DNA from: Suicoccus acidiformans
GTDB taxonomy: Bacteria > Bacillota > Bacilli > Lactobacillales > Aerococcaceae
Direction: 5' to 3'
Assembly: GCF_003546865.1 (NCBI RefSeq)
Contig: NZ_CP023434.1
Coordinates: forward strand, 1,364,001-1,428,000
DNA: 64,000 nt
Of the stretch, positions 2,889 through 59,110 are shown piece by piece. The translations under genes and the position numbers were made by a program. Position 1 is the stretch's first letter; every line of letters begins with the position of its first letter. The notes beneath the pieces were generated by a model. That model saw nothing but the letters and a program-made list of their open reading frames with translations. It did no database searches and was not told the origin of the DNA.

Positions 2889-2938
2889 TGGTCAGGGTTT
2901 GTGCGGTTTGACTGGCTTGTGCGGCTTGACCAATCCTG

Positions 2939-3943
2939 ACTATCGTGGTGCACCTCTACCACAATAGTGAAACAGGGCTTGACTTACGTGGTAGGGATCT
3001 ACCACGATAGTCGGAAGCGATTTGACTTGCGTGGTGCACTGCTACCACGGTAGTCTAAGTGGGGTTGACTTACGTGGTAGGTTGTTACCACGTAAGTCTG
3101 ATTTCCAGGCGAGGGTGAAAAATAGGAACCGTCTAGAATTAGAAGGACAACTTAACGGGTCTCGGCAGAAATACAGAGCTGATTTAGGTGCAAATGCAAA
3201 GTTTGGCTCAGTAACTTAGATCTACTACCCTCCTCGGATCTAATGAAGGTTGATGCCACGGCCGCGGCCGTGGCTTCCTTAGCTTAATATAGAATTTGTG
3301 CCCTGCACCCTACTTTGTTAGAAGCACGGGTTGTGAGCAAACCGCAGCTTGACCAATCCTGACTATCGTGGTGCACCTCTACCACGATAGTGAAACAGGG
3401 CTTGACTTACGTGGTAGAACCCTACCACGATAGTCGGAAGCGATTTGACTTGCGTGGTGCACTGCTACCACGGTAGTCTAAGTGGGGTTGACTTACGTGG
3501 TAGATTGTTACCACGTAAGTCTGATTTCCAGGCGAGGGTGAAAAATAGGAACCGTCTAGAATTAGAAGGACAACTTAACGGGGCTCGACAGAAAATCCAA
3601 GTTGGTTTGAGTACAAAAACAAAATTCGTCTTAGTAACTTAGTTCTACCACCCTCCTCAGATCTAATAAAGGTTGATGCCACGGCCGAGGTCGTGGCTTC
3701 CTTAGCTTAATTTAGAATTTGTGCCCTGCACCCCACTTTGTTAGAAGAACGGATTGTGTACAAACCGCAGCTTGACCAATCCTGACTATCGTGGTGCACC
3801 TCTACCACGATAGTGAAACAAGGCTTGACTTACGTGGTAGAACCCTACCACGATAGTCGGAAGCGATTTGACTTGCGTGGTGCACTTCTACCACGATAGT
3901 CTATGTGGGTTTGACTTACGTGGTAGGTTGTTACCACGTAAGT
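2939..3943. repeat. Phased palindrome array A (family 1, 12 copies)
   Basis: Twelve 30-bp palindromes with core CGTGGT, 8 bases, ACCACG begin at 2939, 2982, 3025, 3068; 3362, 3405, 3448, 3491; 3785, 3828, 3871 and 3914. Within each group of four the spacers are exactly 13 bp, a 43-bp period. The groups repeat every 423 bp, together with about 260 bp of conserved sequence that includes a GCCACGGC/GCCGTGGC hairpin (near 3258 and 3681). Outer arms are ACTAT, ACTTA or ACTTG on the left and ATAGT, GTAGT or TAAGT on the right. The array fills the gap between asd and the DUF1002 gene. I see no real coding sequence in it, no transposase and no terminal repeats. Confidence 0.93.
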
Positions 3944-4140
3944 CTGATTTCCAGGCGAGGATGAAAAATAGGATTCGTCCAACAATCGCGCGACTTACTT
4001 AGCTACCTCAAGCCGCTCTTTATCCAGTTTTTGAATAATTTTAGAATCATCTTAATAATTGTTGCAGAATTGTTACAAATAGATTAATATTGTGTTAAGG
4101 AGAAAATCCTAAATATTAAATAAAGAAAGAAGGGGACCAC

Positions 4141-6197: not shown

Positions 6198-7385
6198 ATT
6201 GTCAATTTAAGTTAGAAATTTCTACACTATATGATGATTGATTGAACTTGGTGATACACTTGTGTTAACCGCCTTAAACAGCCCCCTTCATCAAGCTCCT
6301 GAGGAGTCAGGTGCTTGATGAAACCATATTACTTAAGTGGTTGGCATAATAGCCAGGTGTTTGATCCAAAAGTTGGGCCAAAAACCTCTAGGGGAGTGTA
6401 GTAGTTAAGAGATTTACGTGGAATGATATGTCACTTGAAGGTTACTTCCTTAAGAAAGTCTTCATCTACTTCATTAAAATCAGTACCTTTAGGCAGACCA
6501 TCTCTTCTTAACCATCCGTTAGTATGCTCATTCCGTTCTCTTTGAGATGGGCATCCTGGGTCTGCAAAGAAGATATCGATATCAAATTCATTGCTTAAGT
6601 CTTTCCAGTTAGAAAACTCTTTGCCATTGTCCAAAGTCAGAAATTTAAGCAGACGGTCAGGGATTTTAAGGAAGAAACGCCTCAATGAATCCGTTACTTG
6701 ACATGCTTTACGACCTTCTGTCTTCAGGGTGATTGCTAATTTACTTATTCGTTCAACTAGTGTAATGGCCGCACTTTAGTGGTTCTTACCAACGACAGTA
6801 TCTCCTTCAAAATGACCAAATTCCTCATTGTACTCAGGATAAGCCTCTTGACGCTGTTCTAGTCTTCTGCGGTTATTTAGACGGCCCCTCGTTTCAACAT
6901 GATGATTCGCTTTTCGTTTACCTTGCATGGGTAAATCTCTGACATCAAAAGCAGGGTCATCTTGGAAGCGACGGTAAAGTGTTTTTGCACAGCAATTCAA
7001 GTCAGTTTCCTGGCGTCCAATCATTAAGTCCGGTGACCACCTTTGTGACTCCCGGTCATTGATATAGGTGATTTGATCTTCTATGAACTGCTTCTTCTTA
7101 GAGCCACACTTAGATTTGTTAGTTTTGTAGCGTTCATAATAGTCGATGATAGTCCCACCAGCGTCTAAATAATGATAGACATTATAGATGGTTTGAGCAG
7201 ATTTTCTTAACTTTTTAGCGACTATGTAAGCTTTTCGCCAATTTCGTAATAGTTTTCTATCCAAGTCAGTTCTTTCGTGGCAAGATGTGTGTAGGCCATT
7301 TTGTGTCTACTCCTTATTTATGAATGCTCTCATAAATAGTGTAGCACAAATGGTCTTATTTGTTTTTCTAGCTTAATTTTACAAT
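6198..7385 (-). mobile_element. IS30-family element, decayed
   Basis: The ends are imperfect inverted repeats: ATTGTCAATTTAAGTTAGAAA at the left, and on the opposite strand at the right ATTGTAAAATTAAGCTAGAAA. About 1.19 kb lies between them, typical of IS30. The single transposase gene inside has several lesions. A 5'-truncated relative in the same orientation lies at 63574-63955, so this IS has been active in this genome. Confidence 0.85.
6307..7299 (-). pseudogene. IS30-family transposase, inactivated
   Basis: Reading from the ATG at 7299 gives MAYTHLATKELTWIENYYEI, the usual N-terminus with a helix-turn-helix. A one-base loss around 7230 (GGCGAAAAGCT) shifts the frame. The main body then runs from 7229 to a TAA at 6776 (VGKNH-stop-SAAITL, probably from AAA), continues in the same frame through the DDE region (LTLDNGKEFSNWKDL) to a TGA at 6431, and finally has a 2-base deletion near 6384 when compared with the copy at 63.7 kb. 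The protein cannot be functional. The DDE residues seen are the D of LDNGKE and the E of RERNEHTNGWLRR. Confidence 0.9.
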
Positions 7386-27045: not shown

Positions 27046-27296
27046 ACCCAAAAAACACATCCGCCCTCTCCATTGCTGGAAAAGGGACGAATGTGCTCCG
27101 TGTTACCACCCTAATTCAGGTTGTCAATATGAAACCTCTCTCGTAAACTTACGTTCAGTCATAACGGACTGCTCCGTCTAAGTAGCTTGCACTATTTAGA
27201 TACTCCAAGCTCATTTTCAAGCAGGTTCTGTACTCTTTCTCACCAAGCAAGAGCTCTCTGATACATTCCCTACTTTACTCTACTCTTCACTGCGTT
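27046..27296 (-). ncRNA. T-box riboswitch, specifier AUG (methionine)
   Basis: On the minus strand the leader carries the conserved T-box AATTAGGGTGGTAACACGG (27116-27098), then a terminator stem ACACATCCGCCC/GGGACGAATGTGCT with a T run. Stem I is recognisable: AGTA and GAA of the loop E, a 7-bp helix AAGTAGG/CCTGCTT, AGAGAG and the GGTGAGAA distal loop. The bases after GAA are A-ATG-A (ATG at 27214-27212). In the B. subtilis glyQS leader the codon follows GAA plus one base and is followed by A, so the specifier here is AUG, i.e. tRNA-Met. It turns on the hyuA-hyuB-cupin operon when methionyl-tRNA is short. Confidence 0.9.
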
Positions 27297-27302
27297 GTAA
27301 GT

Positions 27303-31298: not shown

Positions 31299-31937
31299 AT
31301 TTAAACTGCGCTTAGGTTACTTTCTAAGCGCGATTTGTCTAATTATTATAGAAAGGATAGTACATTAACTTTTAGGTGCGAGACGTGAGGCTGTGTAGTG
31401 AAGCAACGCAGTACAAGAGCTGGGTTCTGGGCACAGGAGTGGGTCCGTACAGTAGGATTCCGTCGGACCCTATACTGACAGCATACCACCCTGTTTAAGC
31501 GATAAACGCAAAGACTTAGCATAAGGATCCGCATTTATAAAGAAAGGAAGCCTAAAGCTCGGTGGCTTTAGGCTATTCAATATATCAGTTTGTAAATTAG
31601 CATGACTAGCAGAGCTGGCGTTGTCTAATAAATGAATACGCCGTGTGGTGGTTCGGTGCAGAGTGGTGAGTTAGCCGGGTTTGAGTGTTTAAATCGGATA
31701 GATTATGCTGTTTGCGTGGTAAATTCGGTACGGTTAAGTACCGTTAAGCGTTTTTGGTAATGTTTGAATGGATCCTCATACATTAGCAAGTTCATTTCGT
31801 AAGGTTTGAATCGATGTTCAAACCTTACGAACCACTAATATCCGTGCAGTTCAACTAGCCATACTAAGCACAAGACCCCATCTTCAGGTTTGTACGCACC
31901 AAAGCTAATCCCAATTCTTGTAGTGCATCCCTGCTGG
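31299..31937. other. Gene-free spacer with repeat element R3, copy 1
   Basis: No coding sequence is seen. The part 31388-31560 resembles 37118-37285: both have GTGAARCRACGC, AGAGCTRGG, TTTAAGCGAT and TAGCATAAGG in the same order, then a hairpin (here AGCCTAAAGC/GCTTTAGGCT at 31549-31574). In both places a family-2 palindrome array follows. This suggests a compound intergenic element. Confidence 0.5.
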
Positions 31938-32049
31938 ATTCCGTGGGACTTAGCTCCCACGGGTTTTGCACTTCTTTTTATTCCGTCGGAATACTTCTCC
32001 ACGAAATGATTTACGCCATTTATTCCGTCGGGCCGCTTCCCAAGAAATA
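31938..32049. repeat. Family-2 phased palindromes, 3 copies
   Basis: Palindromes of the ATTCCGTSGGA type begin at 31938, 31980 and 32022, exactly 42 bp apart (28 bp plus 14 bp). They lie between two convergent genes. The following stretch to 32225 shows no gene. Confidence 0.85.
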
Positions 32050-36494: not shown

Positions 36495-37365
36495 CGGAAC
36501 ACTCCCTCTCTATCAAATCATACTTTTATCAAAAAATTAGCCACTACTCATAAAAGCAATGCCTGGTGATCATTTCTAAAAATCCCAATGGATGGTTTGC
36601 TGGGCTAGGGTTCATTAAAAAAACGTCAATGATGAGTTCTATCAGTAAACGACGGCGGCTCTCCTTATTTCTGCAAAGTTAAGCATACCATGACCTGAAA
36701 TCCACTCTATCTATATTTCACACCGTATTCGCTAAAGTGAGCCTTAGCCTACCATAGCGAAAAAGATGCTCGTAGCGCCGAGCTGTGTCAGGGAACAAAA
36801 CAGTGCAATCCGTCCGGCTTCGCCGATACATCTGCTTCGCTAAAGACTTAGCCTAACAAGCAAACCACTATGCTCCTTGCAGCACGCAGTGATGGAAAGC
36901 TTTAAGCGTTCCCGTCACTATGGCAGCTCAGTTCAGATTTCAACCCTGTAGCCTCGCCCTCATAGTTTAACAAGTTTTCCGTCAATTACCAAGTAAATAT
37001 AAAAGATTCTCTGACTTTCCCCGGCCATTCTTAACCTCTGGATTATTGGAAGCGCAATCATCGTGCACTTATCAAATAAGTGCGCTAGGTACTTCATCGG
37101 TGCAAATAGCTTGTTCGGCTATTAGTTACACGTAGCAGTGAAACGACGCTGTTTTAGAGCTAGGGGCTTAGTGCTGGGGCGTGGTCGTGGACTCCATTCC
37201 GACGTCGTTCCGTCGTTTTTAAGCGATCTGCGCAGGAACCTAGCATAAGGTAGCCTCAAGCAGGAGAGCTTGAGGTAATTGAACAAGGCGGTTTGTGGTA
37301 TGGAACGACTGGCAGAGATAATGCTGACTAAAAACTGCAGTCAACAAGCACTGTCTCGTTCCCGG
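36495..37365. other. Gene-free spacer with repeat element R3, copy 2
   Basis: No gene is seen in 870 bp. The stretch 37118-37285 is the counterpart of the R3 copy at 31388-31560 and ends in the hairpin GCCTCAAGC/GCTTGAGG (37253-37278). The stretch 36720-36900 holds further motifs GCTAAAGWSWNNCTTAGCCTA twice (near 36733 and 36838), perhaps decayed parts of the same element. Confidence 0.45.
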
Positions 37366-37477
37366 ATTCCGTGGGAGCACGTTCCCACGGAATGATTTCC
37401 GGCCATAATTTCGTGGGGAGACTTCTCCACGGAATTTAGCGCTAATTTTATTCCGTCGGGCGTAGTTCTCACGGAAT
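37366..37477. repeat. Family-2 phased palindromes, 3 copies
   Basis: Palindromes begin at 37366, 37408 and 37450, exactly 42 bp apart, each 28 bp with 14-bp spacers. They end 65 bp before the recQ promoter. Confidence 0.88.
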
Positions 37478-37541
37478 CCGAATCGAATCAGCCCGCCCCG
37501 CTACGGTAAGAATTCGTCAACTTTTTGCGCTGCAGGAGGGG

Positions 37542-39417: not shown

Positions 39418-39445
39418 GCCACGGCCGGTGCCGTGGCTTCTTTAT
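39418..39445 (+). terminator. Terminator of recQ (GCCACGGC hairpin)
   Basis: GCCACGGC and GCCGTGGC form an 8-bp stem with loop CGGT and a downstream TTCTTTAT. The same hairpin type recurs within the palindrome macro-units. Confidence 0.7.
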
Positions 39446-39479: not shown

Positions 39480-39733
39480 CTAAAGCTTGGCCAACCTCCG
39501 TCCCGCTTGCTGCAGGGCTAGGAGCCACAAGGCGCCGAAGACGAGGCAGAGAACCGCAATCAGTTTCCACGCGGTCGCATAGCCCACCACCATCGCCAGG
39601 CTTGCTACTAAGAGAGACCCGGTCGCCACGCCGAGGCACTGGGTGACCGCATGGAGGAAAACATTGGCCAAGGTAATCGCAATCGGCGGCATGATCACGC
39701 AGACGACCAGAACACCCGTAACAATACGACAAC
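39480..39733 (-). pseudogene. Remnant of a membrane transporter (C-terminal part)
   Basis: The frame at 39698-39480 reads VFLHAVTQCLGVATGSLLVASLAMVV... followed by another hydrophobic stretch (KLIAVLCLVFGALWLLAL) and a basic tail. This looks like the last two membrane segments of a major facilitator transporter. No start, ribosome binding site or upstream part is found; family-2 palindromes begin where the rest should be. Call is tentative. Confidence 0.35.
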
Positions 39734-39846
39734 ATTCCGTGAGAACAGCGATTGACGGAATATAAATCCAGCTAAAATTCCGTGGAATCGGTCTCCCTCG
39801 GAATAAACGGCCAAAATCATTCCGTGGGAACGCGCTCCGACGGAAT
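39734..39846. repeat. Family-2 phased palindromes, 3 copies
   Basis: Palindromes begin at 39734, 39777 and 39819 (spacing 43 and 42 bp), each 28 bp. Confidence 0.82.
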
Positions 39847-39985
39847 CCCGGAGATCAGAATTGGCGTTGTCCGTGCAGGTACTCTCGGGTGTATAATAAA
39901 GAAGTACGGCACTTAGCCGTGGCGAATCGGGATTGTATACAAACCGTCTTGTTCTGCTACGAAACTGCCCTCAAGCAGAAAGAGG

Positions 39986-40524: not shown

Positions 40525-40604
40525 CTTGATTGGTTATTTGTGCACTAATCTTGATTGGGTGATAAGGGCGCAGATTTCGGTTGAAACCGGCTTGACCATT
40601 CCTG

Positions 40605-41602
40605 ACTATCGTGGTGCGCACTTACCACGATAGTCTAGAACCAACTGACTGGCGTGGTAGGATTCCACCACGTAACTCAAACCCCGGTTCACTACCGTGG
40701 TAAAACTCTACCACGATAGTTTAAGTCCAATCCACTTACGTGGTAGAACTCTACCACGATAGTCTACTCCCCGCATCGAAGCAAAAAAAGCACCCCTACC
40801 AAACGCAGCTACAAATTCCTGCTCCCAGCACCAATTCTGTTCAGTTAGGCTACCAATACAAAGTTTAGCCCTCCAACTATATTCAAGCATCTACCACGGA
40901 TCAGATAAAGGTTGGTGCCACGGCGCTCGCCGTGGCTTCCTTATCTCAATTTACAATTTGCGCCCTAAACCTCACTGCACAACAAAGGCACAAATTTCAG
41001 ACATACCAATTTGACCATTATTGACTACCGTGGTGCGCACTTACCACGATAGTCTAGAGCCAACTGACTGGCGTGGTAGGATTCCACCACGTAACTCAAA
41101 CCCCGGTTCACTACCGTGGTAAAACTCTACCACGATAGTTTAAGCCCAATCCACTTACGTGGTAGAACTCTACCACGATAGTCTACTCCCCGCATCGAAG
41201 CAAAAAACGCACCCCCTACCAAACGCAGCTACAAATTCCTGCTCCCAGCACCAATTCTGTTCAGTTAGGCTACCAATACAAAGTTTAGCCCACCAACTAT
41301 ATTCAAGCATCCACCACGGATCAGATAAAGGTTGGTGCCACGGCGCTCGCCGTGGCTTCCTTATCTCAATTTACAATTTGCGCCCTAAACCTCACTGCAC
41401 AACAAAGGCACAAATTTCAGACATACCCCTTTGACCATTCCTGACTACCGTGGTGCGCACTTACCACGATAGTCTAGAACCAACTGACTGGCGTGGTAGG
41501 ATTCCACCACGTAACTCAAACCCCGGTTCACTACCGTGGTAAAACTCTACCACGTTAGTTTAAGCCCAATCCACTTACGTGGTAGAACTCTACCACGATA
41601 GT
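40605..41602. repeat. Phased palindrome array B (family 1, 12 copies)
   Basis: Copies begin at 40605, 40648, 40691, 40734; 41024, 41067, 41110, 41153; 41444, 41487, 41530 and 41573. Each is 30 bp (core CGTGGT, 8 bases, ACCACG) with 13-bp spacers; the groups of four repeat every 419-420 bp. Between groups lies conserved sequence with the GCCACGGC/GCCGTGGC hairpin. The second copy of each group has the odd arms ACTGG and TAACT. The array fills the divergent spacer between the SufT-like and HAD genes. Confidence 0.93.
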
Positions 41603-41691
41603 CTACTCCCCGCCATACCCATCACGCAGGCCTCAGCACAAACTCACCAATCCCCCCAAACCTCGCGCTACCACCAACCTTTTTTTAGTAT

Positions 41692-42565: not shown

Positions 42566-43034
42566 TTTGAATAAAACTGAAAGTTGTGCTGTCTCTAAAA
42601 AAATTAAAGCCTCCAGTCCTTGTCAAAATGAAATGTCCCCTGTCTACTTGACAGGGGCAGTTCAAAAAGGGTGCTGGGGGCTATATTTTATTACTTAAAT
42701 TTTACCATACCCTCATCTGTCCAGTATCTAAAGGTTAAATCAGAAACCATCCTCCGCAACAAACGCATTGCCCAATCCCTCCCAATTCCGGCGGACGACG
42801 TTCCCACGGAATTTTCGCTCAATTTTATTCCGTCGGGACCAAGCCCAACGGAATCCTGACACGTATACCAGACATAAAATAGCGAATCAAGCGAAATGTG
42901 TCACATTTATGGGACGCGATCTGCAACCACCAACCTCGCCACACGCACCAACCCTCCCCTTTCCAGCACAAAAACACCCACCAACTTTTTCAAGTCAGTG
43001 GATGCTTCACATTACTCATGTAAATACTCTGCCT
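42566..43034. other. Gene-free spacer with an IS3 end remnant and family-2 palindromes
   Basis: At 42637-42665 the minus strand reads GAACTGCCCCTGTCAAGTAG, which matches the left end of the IS3 element at 33.8 kb except for one missing C; no transposase follows. Family-2 palindromes begin at 42785. Short GC-rich stretches follow to 42960. No coding sequence is seen. Confidence 0.6.
42785..42854. repeat. Family-2 phased palindromes, 2 copies
   Basis: Palindromes begin at 42785 and 42827, exactly 42 bp apart, between convergent genes. Confidence 0.82.
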
Positions 43035-46305: not shown

Positions 46306-46910
46306 CTAAATCGCCCCCTTCCCTCTCAAGTTAATTATATCACAAAAAGTCCAAAGCTTTACAAAATGAGCCTGCAGCGGGACACGGTTTGTGGTGCTAG
46401 AAGCGGGTATGCGGTTTGCGCCACAAGCGAGTGTACGGCTTGCGCCACAATTTGCTTTAGCTGCTGAGATTAACAATCCTGCGACCCGCGACATTGCGGA
46501 TCCATTCCAGGGGCTTGCGGAATCCAGCTCCCCCCCACGAAAGCATTAATTCATTCCGTGGGAACCTCCGCCCACGGAATAAATTCCGCCGTTTATTCCG
46601 TCGGACCAGGTCCCACGGAAGTTTGAGCGATTATTCTTCCGTCGGACACCTTTCCCACGGAATTTTTATCCAATTTTATTCCGTCAGACCAGATCCCTAC
46701 GGAATCCTGTTGCGTATAGACGACGCACACAGGCTTGCGCAGAAATTTAGGGTAAGAACACGTCACGGCCCCCTGCCGTGGCTACCTCATTTATAGCAAT
46801 AAGGTAGCCTAAAGCAAGCTCTGCTTTAGGCTCAACCCTTTCAACCCAACCTTTCGCGCTTTGCGCAATAGACAGGGCGAAACGCAGAAATGTCAACCCT
46901 ATTCTTGCAC
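46306..46910. other. Gene-free spacer with family-2 palindromes and two hairpins
   Basis: Besides the array at 46553-46705 it holds a GCCACGG-type hairpin (46763-46783, CACGGCCCCCTGCCGTGG) and a GCCTAAAGC/GCTTTAGGC hairpin (46806-46830), which may end transcription of the osmoprotectant operon. No gene is seen. Confidence 0.6.
46553..46705. repeat. Family-2 phased palindromes, 4 copies
   Basis: Palindromes begin at 46553, 46595, 46636 and 46678 (spacing 42, 41, 42 bp). A shorter 20-bp palindrome of the same type lies at 46504. This is the longest family-2 array in the window. Confidence 0.88.
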
Positions 46911-49252: not shown

Positions 49253-49428
49253 CCCTTATCTCCTCTGCTTTGTTGTATATTGAACATGTAATATAAGTAG
49301 TTAGAGGGTGAGTATAAAGAAAATGCCTAACAGGGTCAAGTGATATGAACTGGGCAGAAGTGGGTTAAGGACGGGGGAGTTTGTGGTGGAGACGCAGATT
49401 GCATAAATGGCGGTTTGACCAATATTGA

Positions 49429-50883
49429 CTATCGTGGTACAAACTTACCACGTAACTCAAACACGGATTCACTATCGTGGTAGAACTCCACCACGATAGT
49501 CTGGAGCCAGTTCACTTACGTGGTGCAGCCCTACCACGATAGTCAACTTCCTGTACTGAGCCAAAAAACGGGCTTATCCAACTAATTCGTTACAATTTCA
49601 GCTCCCAGCACCAATTCAACTCATTTAGCCCACCCATACTAAGTTCAGCTCACCAACAAAAGCCCAGCAACCACCTCGGATCAAAGAAAGGTTGATGCCA
49701 CGGCGCCCGCCGTGGCTTCCTTATCCTATTTAGAGTTGGAGCCCTAAAATTCATTGCGCAACAGAAACGCAAATTCCGAACAAACCACTTTGAATATTCC
49801 TGACTATCGTGGTGCACACTTACCACGTAACTCAAACACAGATTCACTATCGTGGTGCGCCCTCACCACGTAACTCAAACACGGATTCACTATCGTGGTA
49901 CAACTCCACCACGATAGTCTGGAGCCAGTTCACTTACGTGGTACAACTCTACCACGATAGTCAACTTCCTGTACTGAGCCAAAAAACGGGCTATCCAACT
50001 AATTCGTTACAAATTCAGCTCCCAGCACCAATTCCACTCAGTTAGCACACCCATACTAAGTTCAGCTCACTAACAAAAGCCCAGCAACCACCTCGGATCA
50101 AAGAAAGGTTAATGCCACGGCGCCCGCCGTGGCTTCCTTATCCTATTTAGAGTTGGCGCCCTAAAATTCATTGCGCAACAGAAGCGCAATTTCCGAACAA
50201 ACCGATTTGACTATTCCTGACTATCGTGGTGCACACTTACCACGTAACTCAAACACGGATTCACTATCGTGGTAGAACTCCACCACGATAGTCCAAACCC
50301 AATTCACTTACGTGGTGCGACCCTACCACGATAGTCTGGAGCCAGTTCACTTACGTGGTGCAGCCCTACCACGATAGTCAACTTCCTGTACTAAGCCAAA
50401 AAACTGGCTTCACCAATAAATTCAGCTACAATTTCCACTCCCAGCACCAATTCCACTCAGTTAGCCCACCCATACAAAGTTCAGCTCACCAACAAAAGCT
50501 CAGCACCCACCTCGAATCAAAGAAAGGTTGGTGCCAAGGCCCCCGCCGTGGCTTCCTTATCCTATTTAGAGTTGGAGCCCTAAAATTCATTGCGCAACAG
50601 AGGCGCAAATTTCAAATAAACCGCTTTGACTATTCCTGACTATCGTGGTGCACACTTACCACGTAACTCAAACACGGATTCACTATCGTGGTAGAACTCC
50701 ACCACGATAGTCTAAGCTCAGTTCACTTACGTGGTACAACTCCACCACGATAGTCCAAACCCAATTCACTTCCGTGGTAAGGTGCTACCACGTAAGTCAG
50801 TAGAGATGCGCTATAGCGTAGTAGGATGCTAACACGGGAGGCGGCGGATGTGCACTGGCGTGGAGTAGCCCTACCCAAGCGTG
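49429..50883. repeat. Phased palindrome array C (family 1, 15 clear and 2 decayed copies)
   Basis: Copies begin at 49429, 49472, 49515; 49803, 49846, 49889, 49932; 50220, 50263, 50306, 50349; 50639, 50682, 50725, 50768. Two degenerate copies at 50811 and 50854 keep the 43-bp phase. Groups are 374, 417 and 419 bp apart; 374 equals 417 minus one 43-bp unit. The sequence between groups, with a GCCACGGC/GCCGTGGC hairpin, is close to that of array B (shared GCTCCCAGCACCAATTC). The array fills the spacer between khpA and the osmoprotectant operon. Confidence 0.93.
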
Positions 50884-58280: not shown

Positions 58281-58302
58281 GCTCCCAAAAAACCATCCTC
58301 GG

Positions 58303-58372
58303 ATTCCGTGGGAACCAATCTCCGCGGAATTTTAAGCTATTTTTATGCCGTGGGGTTCCAGCCCCACGGAAT
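58303..58372. repeat. Family-2 phased palindromes, 2 copies
   Basis: Palindromes begin at 58303 and 58345, exactly 42 bp apart, directly upstream of the antitoxin promoter. Confidence 0.85.
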
Positions 58373-58569
58373 CCAGCACCCTGCCTCTGCACTACCACAA
58401 GCCAATATCCAATCAGCACGGCCCGAGACGTGGCTTCCTTATTAAATAGAATGAAGTCTTGGCAAGAAGACGGTGTGTCTTCTTGCTAAAGCAATTGAAT
58501 ACGCCATTGTTTGTTAACAAGGGTAATAGCACTAACTTAAGTTCTGCTTAAACGCAAAGTTTGTGCCGG

Positions 58570-58640
58570 ATTTCGTCGGACACCGCTCCCAAAGGAATTT
58601 TCAGCCATTTTTATTCCGTGGGAACCAATCTCCACGGAAT
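58570..58640. repeat. Family-2 phased palindromes, 2 copies
   Basis: Palindromes begin at 58570 (29 bp, somewhat decayed) and 58613 (28 bp). Between this pair and the previous one lies a decayed GC hairpin (CACGGCCCGAGACGTGG, 58417-58433). The stretch to 59110 shows no gene; an imperfect stem (58808-58842) may be a terminator. Confidence 0.75.
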
Positions 58641-59110
58641 CCAGCTCCTAACCTCTGTACAACCATAAACCAATATTCAATCAGCCAATCACCCCGCCGT
58701 GGCTTCATTTGTAAATATAACCGCAAACTATTCAATATACTGTTTGAACCACCGCTAACCTTAACCCCACACACATCACACCTTCATAAAAATAAAAAAT
58801 CCCCCAAGTAACAAAAGTTACCTAGGAGATCAGGATTTTTAGAGGTATGCTGCTAACCTCTTTCTTATTGCAACACAAATATTCACTAAAAGTAACCCCC
58901 AGAACACTCGTTCCAATCCATAAAAAATTCATACCTGCACTTCAACCTCACCGAGAACGGCCAAAAATGATCATTGCATGATATTTCGAAAAAGAAATCT
59001 GAAATACAACTGAATCCGCAACTAATGGCCTATATTACTAACACTATCTCTACCAACTGCATAGAACCCATTCGCTACCAACTCATGCTGAACAAGCAAA
59101 ACCAGCAGTA

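Follow-up and report, generated by a model that had tools for sequence, protein, structure and literature searches.

Phased palindromic satellite arrays in Suicoccus acidiformans and its relatives

Results

Palindrome arrays in the window

The window analysed here is a stretch of 64,000 nucleotides from the genome of Suicoccus acidiformans (contig NZ_CP023434.1, positions 1,364,001 to 1,428,000). Near its start lies array A (2939-3943), made of 12 palindromes of 30 bp with the core CGTGGT-N8-ACCACG, which we call family 1. Each site consists of two 11-bp inverted arms around an 8-bp centre (11+8+11), and the centre, rather than being free, includes symmetric bases. As the initial annotation had described, the palindromes form three groups of four in which every within-group interval is 43 bp; the first palindrome (2939) has one core mismatch. 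Two further family-1 arrays, B and C, lie in the same window, and in all three a block of palindromes plus its linker repeats tandemly at about 420 bp. Overall, the window contains 39 family-1 sites at ≤1 mismatch, compared with a mean of 0.06 in 100 shuffles. Members of a second palindrome family, family 2, lie at further positions of the window. The features are as follows (unstranded unless a strand is given).

2924..3973: array A overall, 2.5 copies of a higher-order unit of 423 bp
2939..3097: first group of array A, with four palindromes of family 1 starting at 2939, 2982, 3025 and 3068, 43-bp period
3255..3274, plus strand: hairpin H core (GCCACGGC...GCCGTGGC, then TTCCTTA) in the linker between groups 1 and 2 of array A
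3362..3520: second group of array A, with four palindromes of family 1 starting at 3362, 3405, 3448 and 3491
3678..3697, plus strand: hairpin H core in the linker between groups 2 and 3 of array A
3785..3943: third group of array A, with four palindromes of family 1 starting at 3785, 3828, 3871 and 3914
31937..32008: family-2 pair, 42-bp interval
37365..37478: family-2 triplet, 42-bp period
39733..39847: family-2 triplet, intervals of 43 and 42 bp
40497 (ahead of the first group), 40917 and 41337: hairpin H in array B
40592..41613: array B, family-1 palindromes in three groups of four, 420-bp unit
42784..42855: family-2 pair, 42-bp interval
46552..46706: family-2 cluster, three sites counted (intervals of 83 and 42 bp); the scan passed over an extra site-like unit lying between sites one and two
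49424..50797: array C, family-1 palindromes in groups of 3, 4, 4 and 4, 417-bp unit
49697, 50114 and 50533: hairpin H in array C
58302..58373: family-2 pair, 42-bp interval
58612..58641: lone family-2 palindrome

In array A, promoter and terminator signals did not rise above those of shuffled sequence. Elsewhere in the window, the minus strand carries a T-box leader (27080-27299, 115.5 bits) and, at 6431-7264, two short frames that by eye resemble pieces of a broken transposase gene.

The groups of multi-group family-1 arrays are joined by linkers, the 13 that we aligned being 188-304 bp long. Hairpin H, with the core GCCACGG...CCGTGGCTTCC, was present in all 24 between-group linkers at ≤3 substitutions; by eye it has an outer stem (GATAAGG/CCTTATC) and an asymmetric inner loop. 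Solitary copies of GCCACGGC...GCCGTGGC, or a near form of it, occur at window positions 39418, 51813 and 57493, some of them followed by a T-rich, terminator-like tract. Judged by this resemblance, hairpin H may be derived from such a terminator.

Copy number and spacing across the genome

The genome, G000, is a single contig of 2,572,159 bases and contains 156 exact CGTGGT-N8-ACCACG sites, the same number as in the stretches that we read. At ≤1 mismatch, those stretches hold 194 sites in 44 blocks of 1 to 36 units, with at least four copies in 26 of the blocks. The spacing, which the initial annotation had proposed to check genome-wide, does not vary freely: 143 of 150 within-block intervals are 43 bp, with two at 42, four at 86 (twice 43) and one at 127, and the longest run has 36 units with all intervals at 43 bp. 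Beside this 36-copy array, at genome position 1869910, stands a lone 30-bp palindrome, ATCGCCGTCGT-N8-ACGACGGCGAT, which has the anatomy of family 1 in a different sequence.

Copy number differs among loci by whole 43-bp units, and at 874.7-875.1 kb of the genome ten near-identical units stand in a row. For these two reasons array growth in 43-bp steps, which had also been suggested from array A, appears likely, the comparison being between loci rather than strains.

Family 2 (ATTCCGTSGG-N10-CCSACGGAAT) has the core letters CGTSG in common with family 1. It occurs in small clusters, often of just two or three copies, from 296 to 2148 kb of the genome. Its period is 42 bp in 46 of 52 intervals; of the other six, three are 43, and 41, 83 and 84 account for one each. 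By eye, the final palindrome of many family-2 arrays is directly followed by a short inverted repeat like GTCGYATWTANNYGAC, for example at window 46707-46726.

Conservation of core, spacing and pairing

To measure conservation within family 1, we chose internal units solely by their register, which gave 113 units, of which 103 are distinct; 6 of the 113 fail to match the core at ≤1 mismatch. Over the distinct units, mean identity was 96.3% across the 12 core positions and 88% at the ACT/AGT ends, falling to 47.5% at the two variable positions of each arm, 54.6% in the 8-bp centre and 53.7% in the 13-bp spacer. In pairwise alignments between loci, gap openings numbered 28 for 18 blocks (16,688 bp aligned), compared with 247 for the 13 linkers (10,188 bp). 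Blocks and linkers have similar identity (66.6% and 64.8%), yet blocks have 14 times fewer gaps per base, a figure that is a ratio and not a P value, as the alignment pairs share sequences. The phasing of family 1 is thus real and its spacing is constrained.

The variable positions of the family-1 arms do not covary, and at the S position of family 2 we counted 28 C/C and 12 G/G mismatches against one compensated pair (83 distinct sites). Because the variable arm positions are uncorrelated and the family-2 mismatches uncompensated, the half-site is kept as a sequence rather than as one side of a stem, and we rejected hairpin pairing as a conserved trait of either family.

Genomic setting

The arrays lie between ordinary genes. 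In S. acidiformans, 33 of 35 loci are intergenic, as are 40 of 42 loci in a relative, genome G011, and 5 of 6 in the other relatives. Of the 33 in S. acidiformans, 20 are flanked by codirectional, 8 by convergent and 5 by divergent genes. Two G011 loci (of the 102-bp class described below) and one locus in genome G001 overlap long frames, which may be either coding or chance frames. G011 arrays are under-represented in divergent gaps (2 of 36; background, 36 of 170) and over-represented in convergent gaps (11 of 36; background, 25 of 170).

We compared 40 proteins from family-1 loci with Pfam, namely 38 of the 83 frames of at least 100 amino acids in ten family-1 stretches and the two genes beside array A. 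These were metabolic enzymes, transporters, one MarR and one GntR protein and two transposase-like proteins; among the 40 there was neither a recurrent DNA-binding neighbour nor a cas gene. The sole recurrent neighbour family that we noted was an M20 peptidase, which adjoins four family-1 arrays.

L010, L015, L016 and L017 (genome 629, 1325, 1526 and 1874 kb): family-1 arrays with an M20 peptidase gene close by

Three of the four peptidases are 30-38% identical and the fourth does not align; at ≤38% identity, they are ruled out as recent copies of one another.

Families 1 and 2 are both absent from a 721-kb region that runs from 2148 kb through 0 to 296 kb and includes dnaA (3.45 kb). The probability of a largest gap of this size by chance was 0.0001, 0.006 or 0.15 when loci were thinned at 5, 20 or 50 kb. 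Five of 19 other frames for DnaA-like ATPases fall inside the gap, which does include such frames of the insertion-sequence type. Avoidance of the origin was rejected as a general rule, since G011 has an array at about 2.019 Mb, <5 kb from dnaA. Separately, the S. acidiformans genome has, in many places, eleven 279-amino-acid frames with equal DnaA-like scores, which probably encode the IstB-like ATPase of a multi-copy insertion sequence.

Arrays in relatives have unrelated sequences and near-whole-turn periods

The sequences of the S. acidiformans arrays are confined to that genome in the collections searched. Among 395 genomes of the order, S. acidiformans alone has a pair of cores at 42-44-bp spacing, and in a set of 60 relatives it alone has the longer site. 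The 30-bp site occurs in 12 stretches of named genomes, none of them an array; three IMG/VR contigs have one pair each and no array; and one 424-bp unit used as a query had no match among plasmids.

Relatives were surveyed with a scan blind to sequence, which calls an array wherever three or more inverted repeats with similar arms stand at equal distances. As a control, it recovered arrays from 11 of 11 sources of the S. acidiformans genome and none from the shuffled window. Applied to 16 genomes of the same family (1.92 Mb), the scan found 61 arrays in five genomes: 53 in G011, four in G001, two in G004 and one each in G003 and G006. Known matches had guided the choice of ten of the 29 stretches from G011, and the other 19 (380 kb) contain 20 of its 53 arrays; several other genomes of the family were sampled by only 20-40 kb, so that absence there says little. 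Other families of the order, sampled by 15 stretches (300 kb), gave no arrays, and neither did 580 kb of locally shuffled G011 DNA.

Array sequences differ across families and genera. One G011 array family, sought in 76 genomes of the bacterial family, was found in a single one at ≤2 mismatches, and at three mismatches G001 and G003 each added one chance-like place. No k-mer common to the array families exceeded shuffles, and we accordingly rejected a single half-site motif shared by all of them.

Clustering by sequence gave 29 clusters, most of them from G011, partly over-split and with S. acidiformans families 1 and 2 merged; their commonest periods were 31 bp (2 clusters), 40-43 bp (21), 51-52 bp (4) and 102 bp (2). 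In the 102-bp class, the distance between palindromes alternates between 41 bp and a gap of about 61 bp. A spacing of 111-112 bp is also present at the higher-order level, where units span 102-112 bp. The periods of 31, 40-43 and 51-52 bp correspond to about three, four and five helical turns. For the 27 periods ≤60 bp, the best-fitting repeat was 10.32 bp (R 0.908; range tried, 9-13 bp), and at 10.4 bp none of 5,000 uniform draws was as concentrated; this statistic is dominated by the four-turn class, with separate weight coming from the 31-bp arrays of G011 and the 51-52-bp arrays of G003, G004 and G011.

In the same stretches, Tandem Repeats Finder reported 89 palindromic repeats, with periods of 31 (7), 40-43 (66), 51-52 (2), 80-86 (7) and 102-104 bp (3) and single outliers at 24, 25 and 27 bp, each of two copies, and at 112 bp. 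Among 94 non-palindromic repeats, 45 were at 40-43 bp, 16 at 21 bp and some at 24 bp. One of the 51-bp families, in G011 (L085:7440-8500), has 20 plus 7 copies.

Discussion

Candidate explanations for the arrays

We propose, in line with a suggestion of the initial annotation, that the arrays are satellites of putative binding sites for a dimeric protein, lying side by side on one face of the helix, and judge the chance that this is right to be about even. Each 30-bp unit would be an inverted pair of half-sites (ACTNNCGTGGTR in family 1, ATTCCGTSGG in family 2), and a fixed period of about four turns would place neighbouring dimers on the same face, where they could touch. Touching dimers would in turn build a cooperative intergenic nucleoprotein stretch that would probably contribute to the architecture of the nucleoid or act as a local insulator. 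This arrangement fits the conservation of half-sites, the absence of compensation, the exact spacing and the whole-turn periods; the protein, its cooperativity and its role in the cell are what we infer. A difficulty is that G011 would need some 15 to 20 specificities.

The alternative that survives best, which we consider unlikely though well within reach, is that the arrays are selfish or neutral satellites whose unit length is set by the amplification process (hairpin slippage, unequal crossing-over or some form of transposition), with no function for the host. Such an origin would agree with the spread of 1 to 36 copies per block, the near-identical and young-looking state of some arrays, the 420-bp higher-order duplications, the confinement of sequences to one genome (1 of 395 and 1 of 76) and the many families within G011. 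A purely mutational origin does not, however, predict that core and spacing are kept, and diverged blocks retain both (96% in the core) whereas spacers fall to 54% and linkers gather 14 times more gaps per base.

Arrays that act as RNA or single-strand hairpins, that is, chains of transcribed hairpins serving as small RNAs, sponges or mRNA stabilisers, seem to us distinctly improbable. A group of four folds strongly (z −9.0), although strong folding is expected of any palindrome, and the excess of G011 arrays in convergent gaps would suit transcripts, whereas the S. acidiformans arrays occupy gaps of all types. The 52-nt satellites of B. coagulans are transcribed, according to the available part of the report on them (PMC8625621). 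Against this stand the lack of compensatory changes and the integer-turn periods, which have no reason in RNA; moreover, no Rfam family passed threshold in the window other than the T-box, which lies elsewhere, and array B gave only sub-threshold miRNA matches.

Core sites of a tyrosine recombinase would share the 11+8+11 layout of two inverted arms and a centre, and the arm of the G011 51-bp family at L085 resembles the arm of a known phage recombination site. This reading is nevertheless very improbable: G011 has five PF00589 matches for its 15 to 20 site families, G012 and G013 have eight each, and 200 kb of the former and 140 kb of the latter yielded no array; in addition, the symmetric bases of the 8-bp centre are at odds with a free one. 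Least probable of all are REP/BIME-like elements moved by a Y1 (HUH) transposase, which would account for clustered, many-copy intergenic palindromes but not for the distribution of PF01797 (none in G011, which has the most arrays, or in G001, a fragment only in S. acidiformans, and four, one and seven matches in G004, G012 and G013) or for the E. coli BIME control (200 kb), in which the scan picked up a single array (direct period, 113 bp) along with pairs at 88, 98, 113 and 114 bp.

A broader and much more tentative idea would be that such satellites in Bacilli form one class by geometry and not by sequence. Inverted half-sites would then recur at whole turns (two, three, four or five), each family being read by its own member of a group of fast-diverging dimeric proteins that polymerise on one face of the DNA, a new type of bacterial chromatin organiser. 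Were this true, these bacteria would have sequence-directed nucleoprotein filaments of a kind so far undescribed, and the sites could be used to fish out the protein.

Comparison with known repeat systems

Several known systems resemble the arrays in part. CRISPR loci likewise have regular palindromic repeats and spacers, but the spacers here are 13 bp long and mutually similar, and one genome has 44 blocks. We rejected CRISPR, in agreement with the initial annotation, as the spacers have common consensus bases (53.7% on average) and the repeat centres vary. REP/BIME elements are also clustered intergenic palindromes; they differ in the two respects given above, the lack of a Y1 transposase in the array-richest genome and the 113-bp repeat of the E. 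coli array. STAR elements of Staphylococcus aureus, in the part of the description available (PMC3532100), are, like the present arrays, clusters of a motif between genes whose spacers are specific to the locus and whose copy number changes, but the STAR motif is a 14-bp GC-rich direct repeat, in contrast to inverted half-sites at one exact period. BOX elements of Streptococcus pneumoniae have boxA and boxC ends with terminal inverted repeats and target-site duplications, and are alike in layout in that an intergenic composite holds a tandem inner module of variable copy number (boxB) between other modules, again as far as the available text describes them (PMC3049150).

The closest match is with published bacterial satellites, and in literature outside most subscription journals we found nothing nearer to these arrays. 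The initial annotation knew of no described element of this form; non-coding satellites of constant size and variable sequence are, however, in print. The available part of the 2021 paper by Subirana and Messeguer (PMC8161180) describes bacterial satellites of 52 or 20-21 nt, with several unrelated families per species of Bacillus that are non-coding, species-specific, dispersed and present in a few to tens of copies. Their units contain short conserved 'signals', often also reversed within the same repeat, and the authors propose a protein polymerising on DNA, stabilisation of the nucleoid or a small RNA. They note 20-21 nt as two helix turns and call the few sizes of 40-41 related to it; in that text as available, the word stem 'palindrom-' does not occur and the single use of 'turns' concerns the 20-21 size (PMC8161180). 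In the available part of a 2019 survey by the same authors, Leptospira interrogans (37, 46 and 69 bp) and Methanocella conradii (37 bp) are the only species in which long repeats form families that are dispersed and non-coding (PMC6749651); these sizes are not near whole turns of 10.3-10.5 bp.

The present arrays have much in common with the constant-size satellites as described in that part of the 2021 paper (PMC8161180), being non-coding tandem repeats of one exact size, species-specific and dispersed. Family 1 has at least four tandem copies of one length in 26 of 44 blocks, 143 of 150 intervals being 43 bp; 33 of 35 S. acidiformans loci are intergenic, and neither 43 nor 31 is a multiple of three; and several families coexist per genome, two with a common core in S. 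acidiformans (43 and 42 bp) and many at 40-43 bp in G011. The differences from the published description, as far as it is available, are that the S. acidiformans sizes are 43 and 42 bp rather than 52 or 20-21, with 51-52 bp only in G003, G004 and G011, and that family-1 units are parts of a larger composite that also includes linkers and hairpin H.

Inverted repeats are present in our arrays by construction of the scan and are not part of the satellite authors' own definition. Of the 27 published Bacillus consensus units (2021 Table 1), six contain a perfect 8-bp arm, where 0.04 would be expected among the first 24; inverted symmetry reaches P ≤0.1 in 17 units and is unremarkable in six (P >0.3). 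Given the six units with a perfect arm and the six with nothing unusual, inverted symmetry, in these consensus sequences, appears to be common but not universal among published satellites.

Collectively, the arrays belong with the published constant-size satellites, following the same logic at different sizes. What is new is the sizes of 42-43 and 31 bp, the inverted half-site anatomy and the measured constraint on spacing. The four-turn size is new subject to the 2020 survey of Subirana and Messeguer, which reportedly includes sizes of 22/44 and 52 nt and, if so, already has it in print. An unexplained class of satellites thereby gains an anatomy of inverted half-sites, a geometric rule of near-whole-turn periods and a measured spacing constraint, and its 'constant size', so far without known meaning, becomes directly testable.
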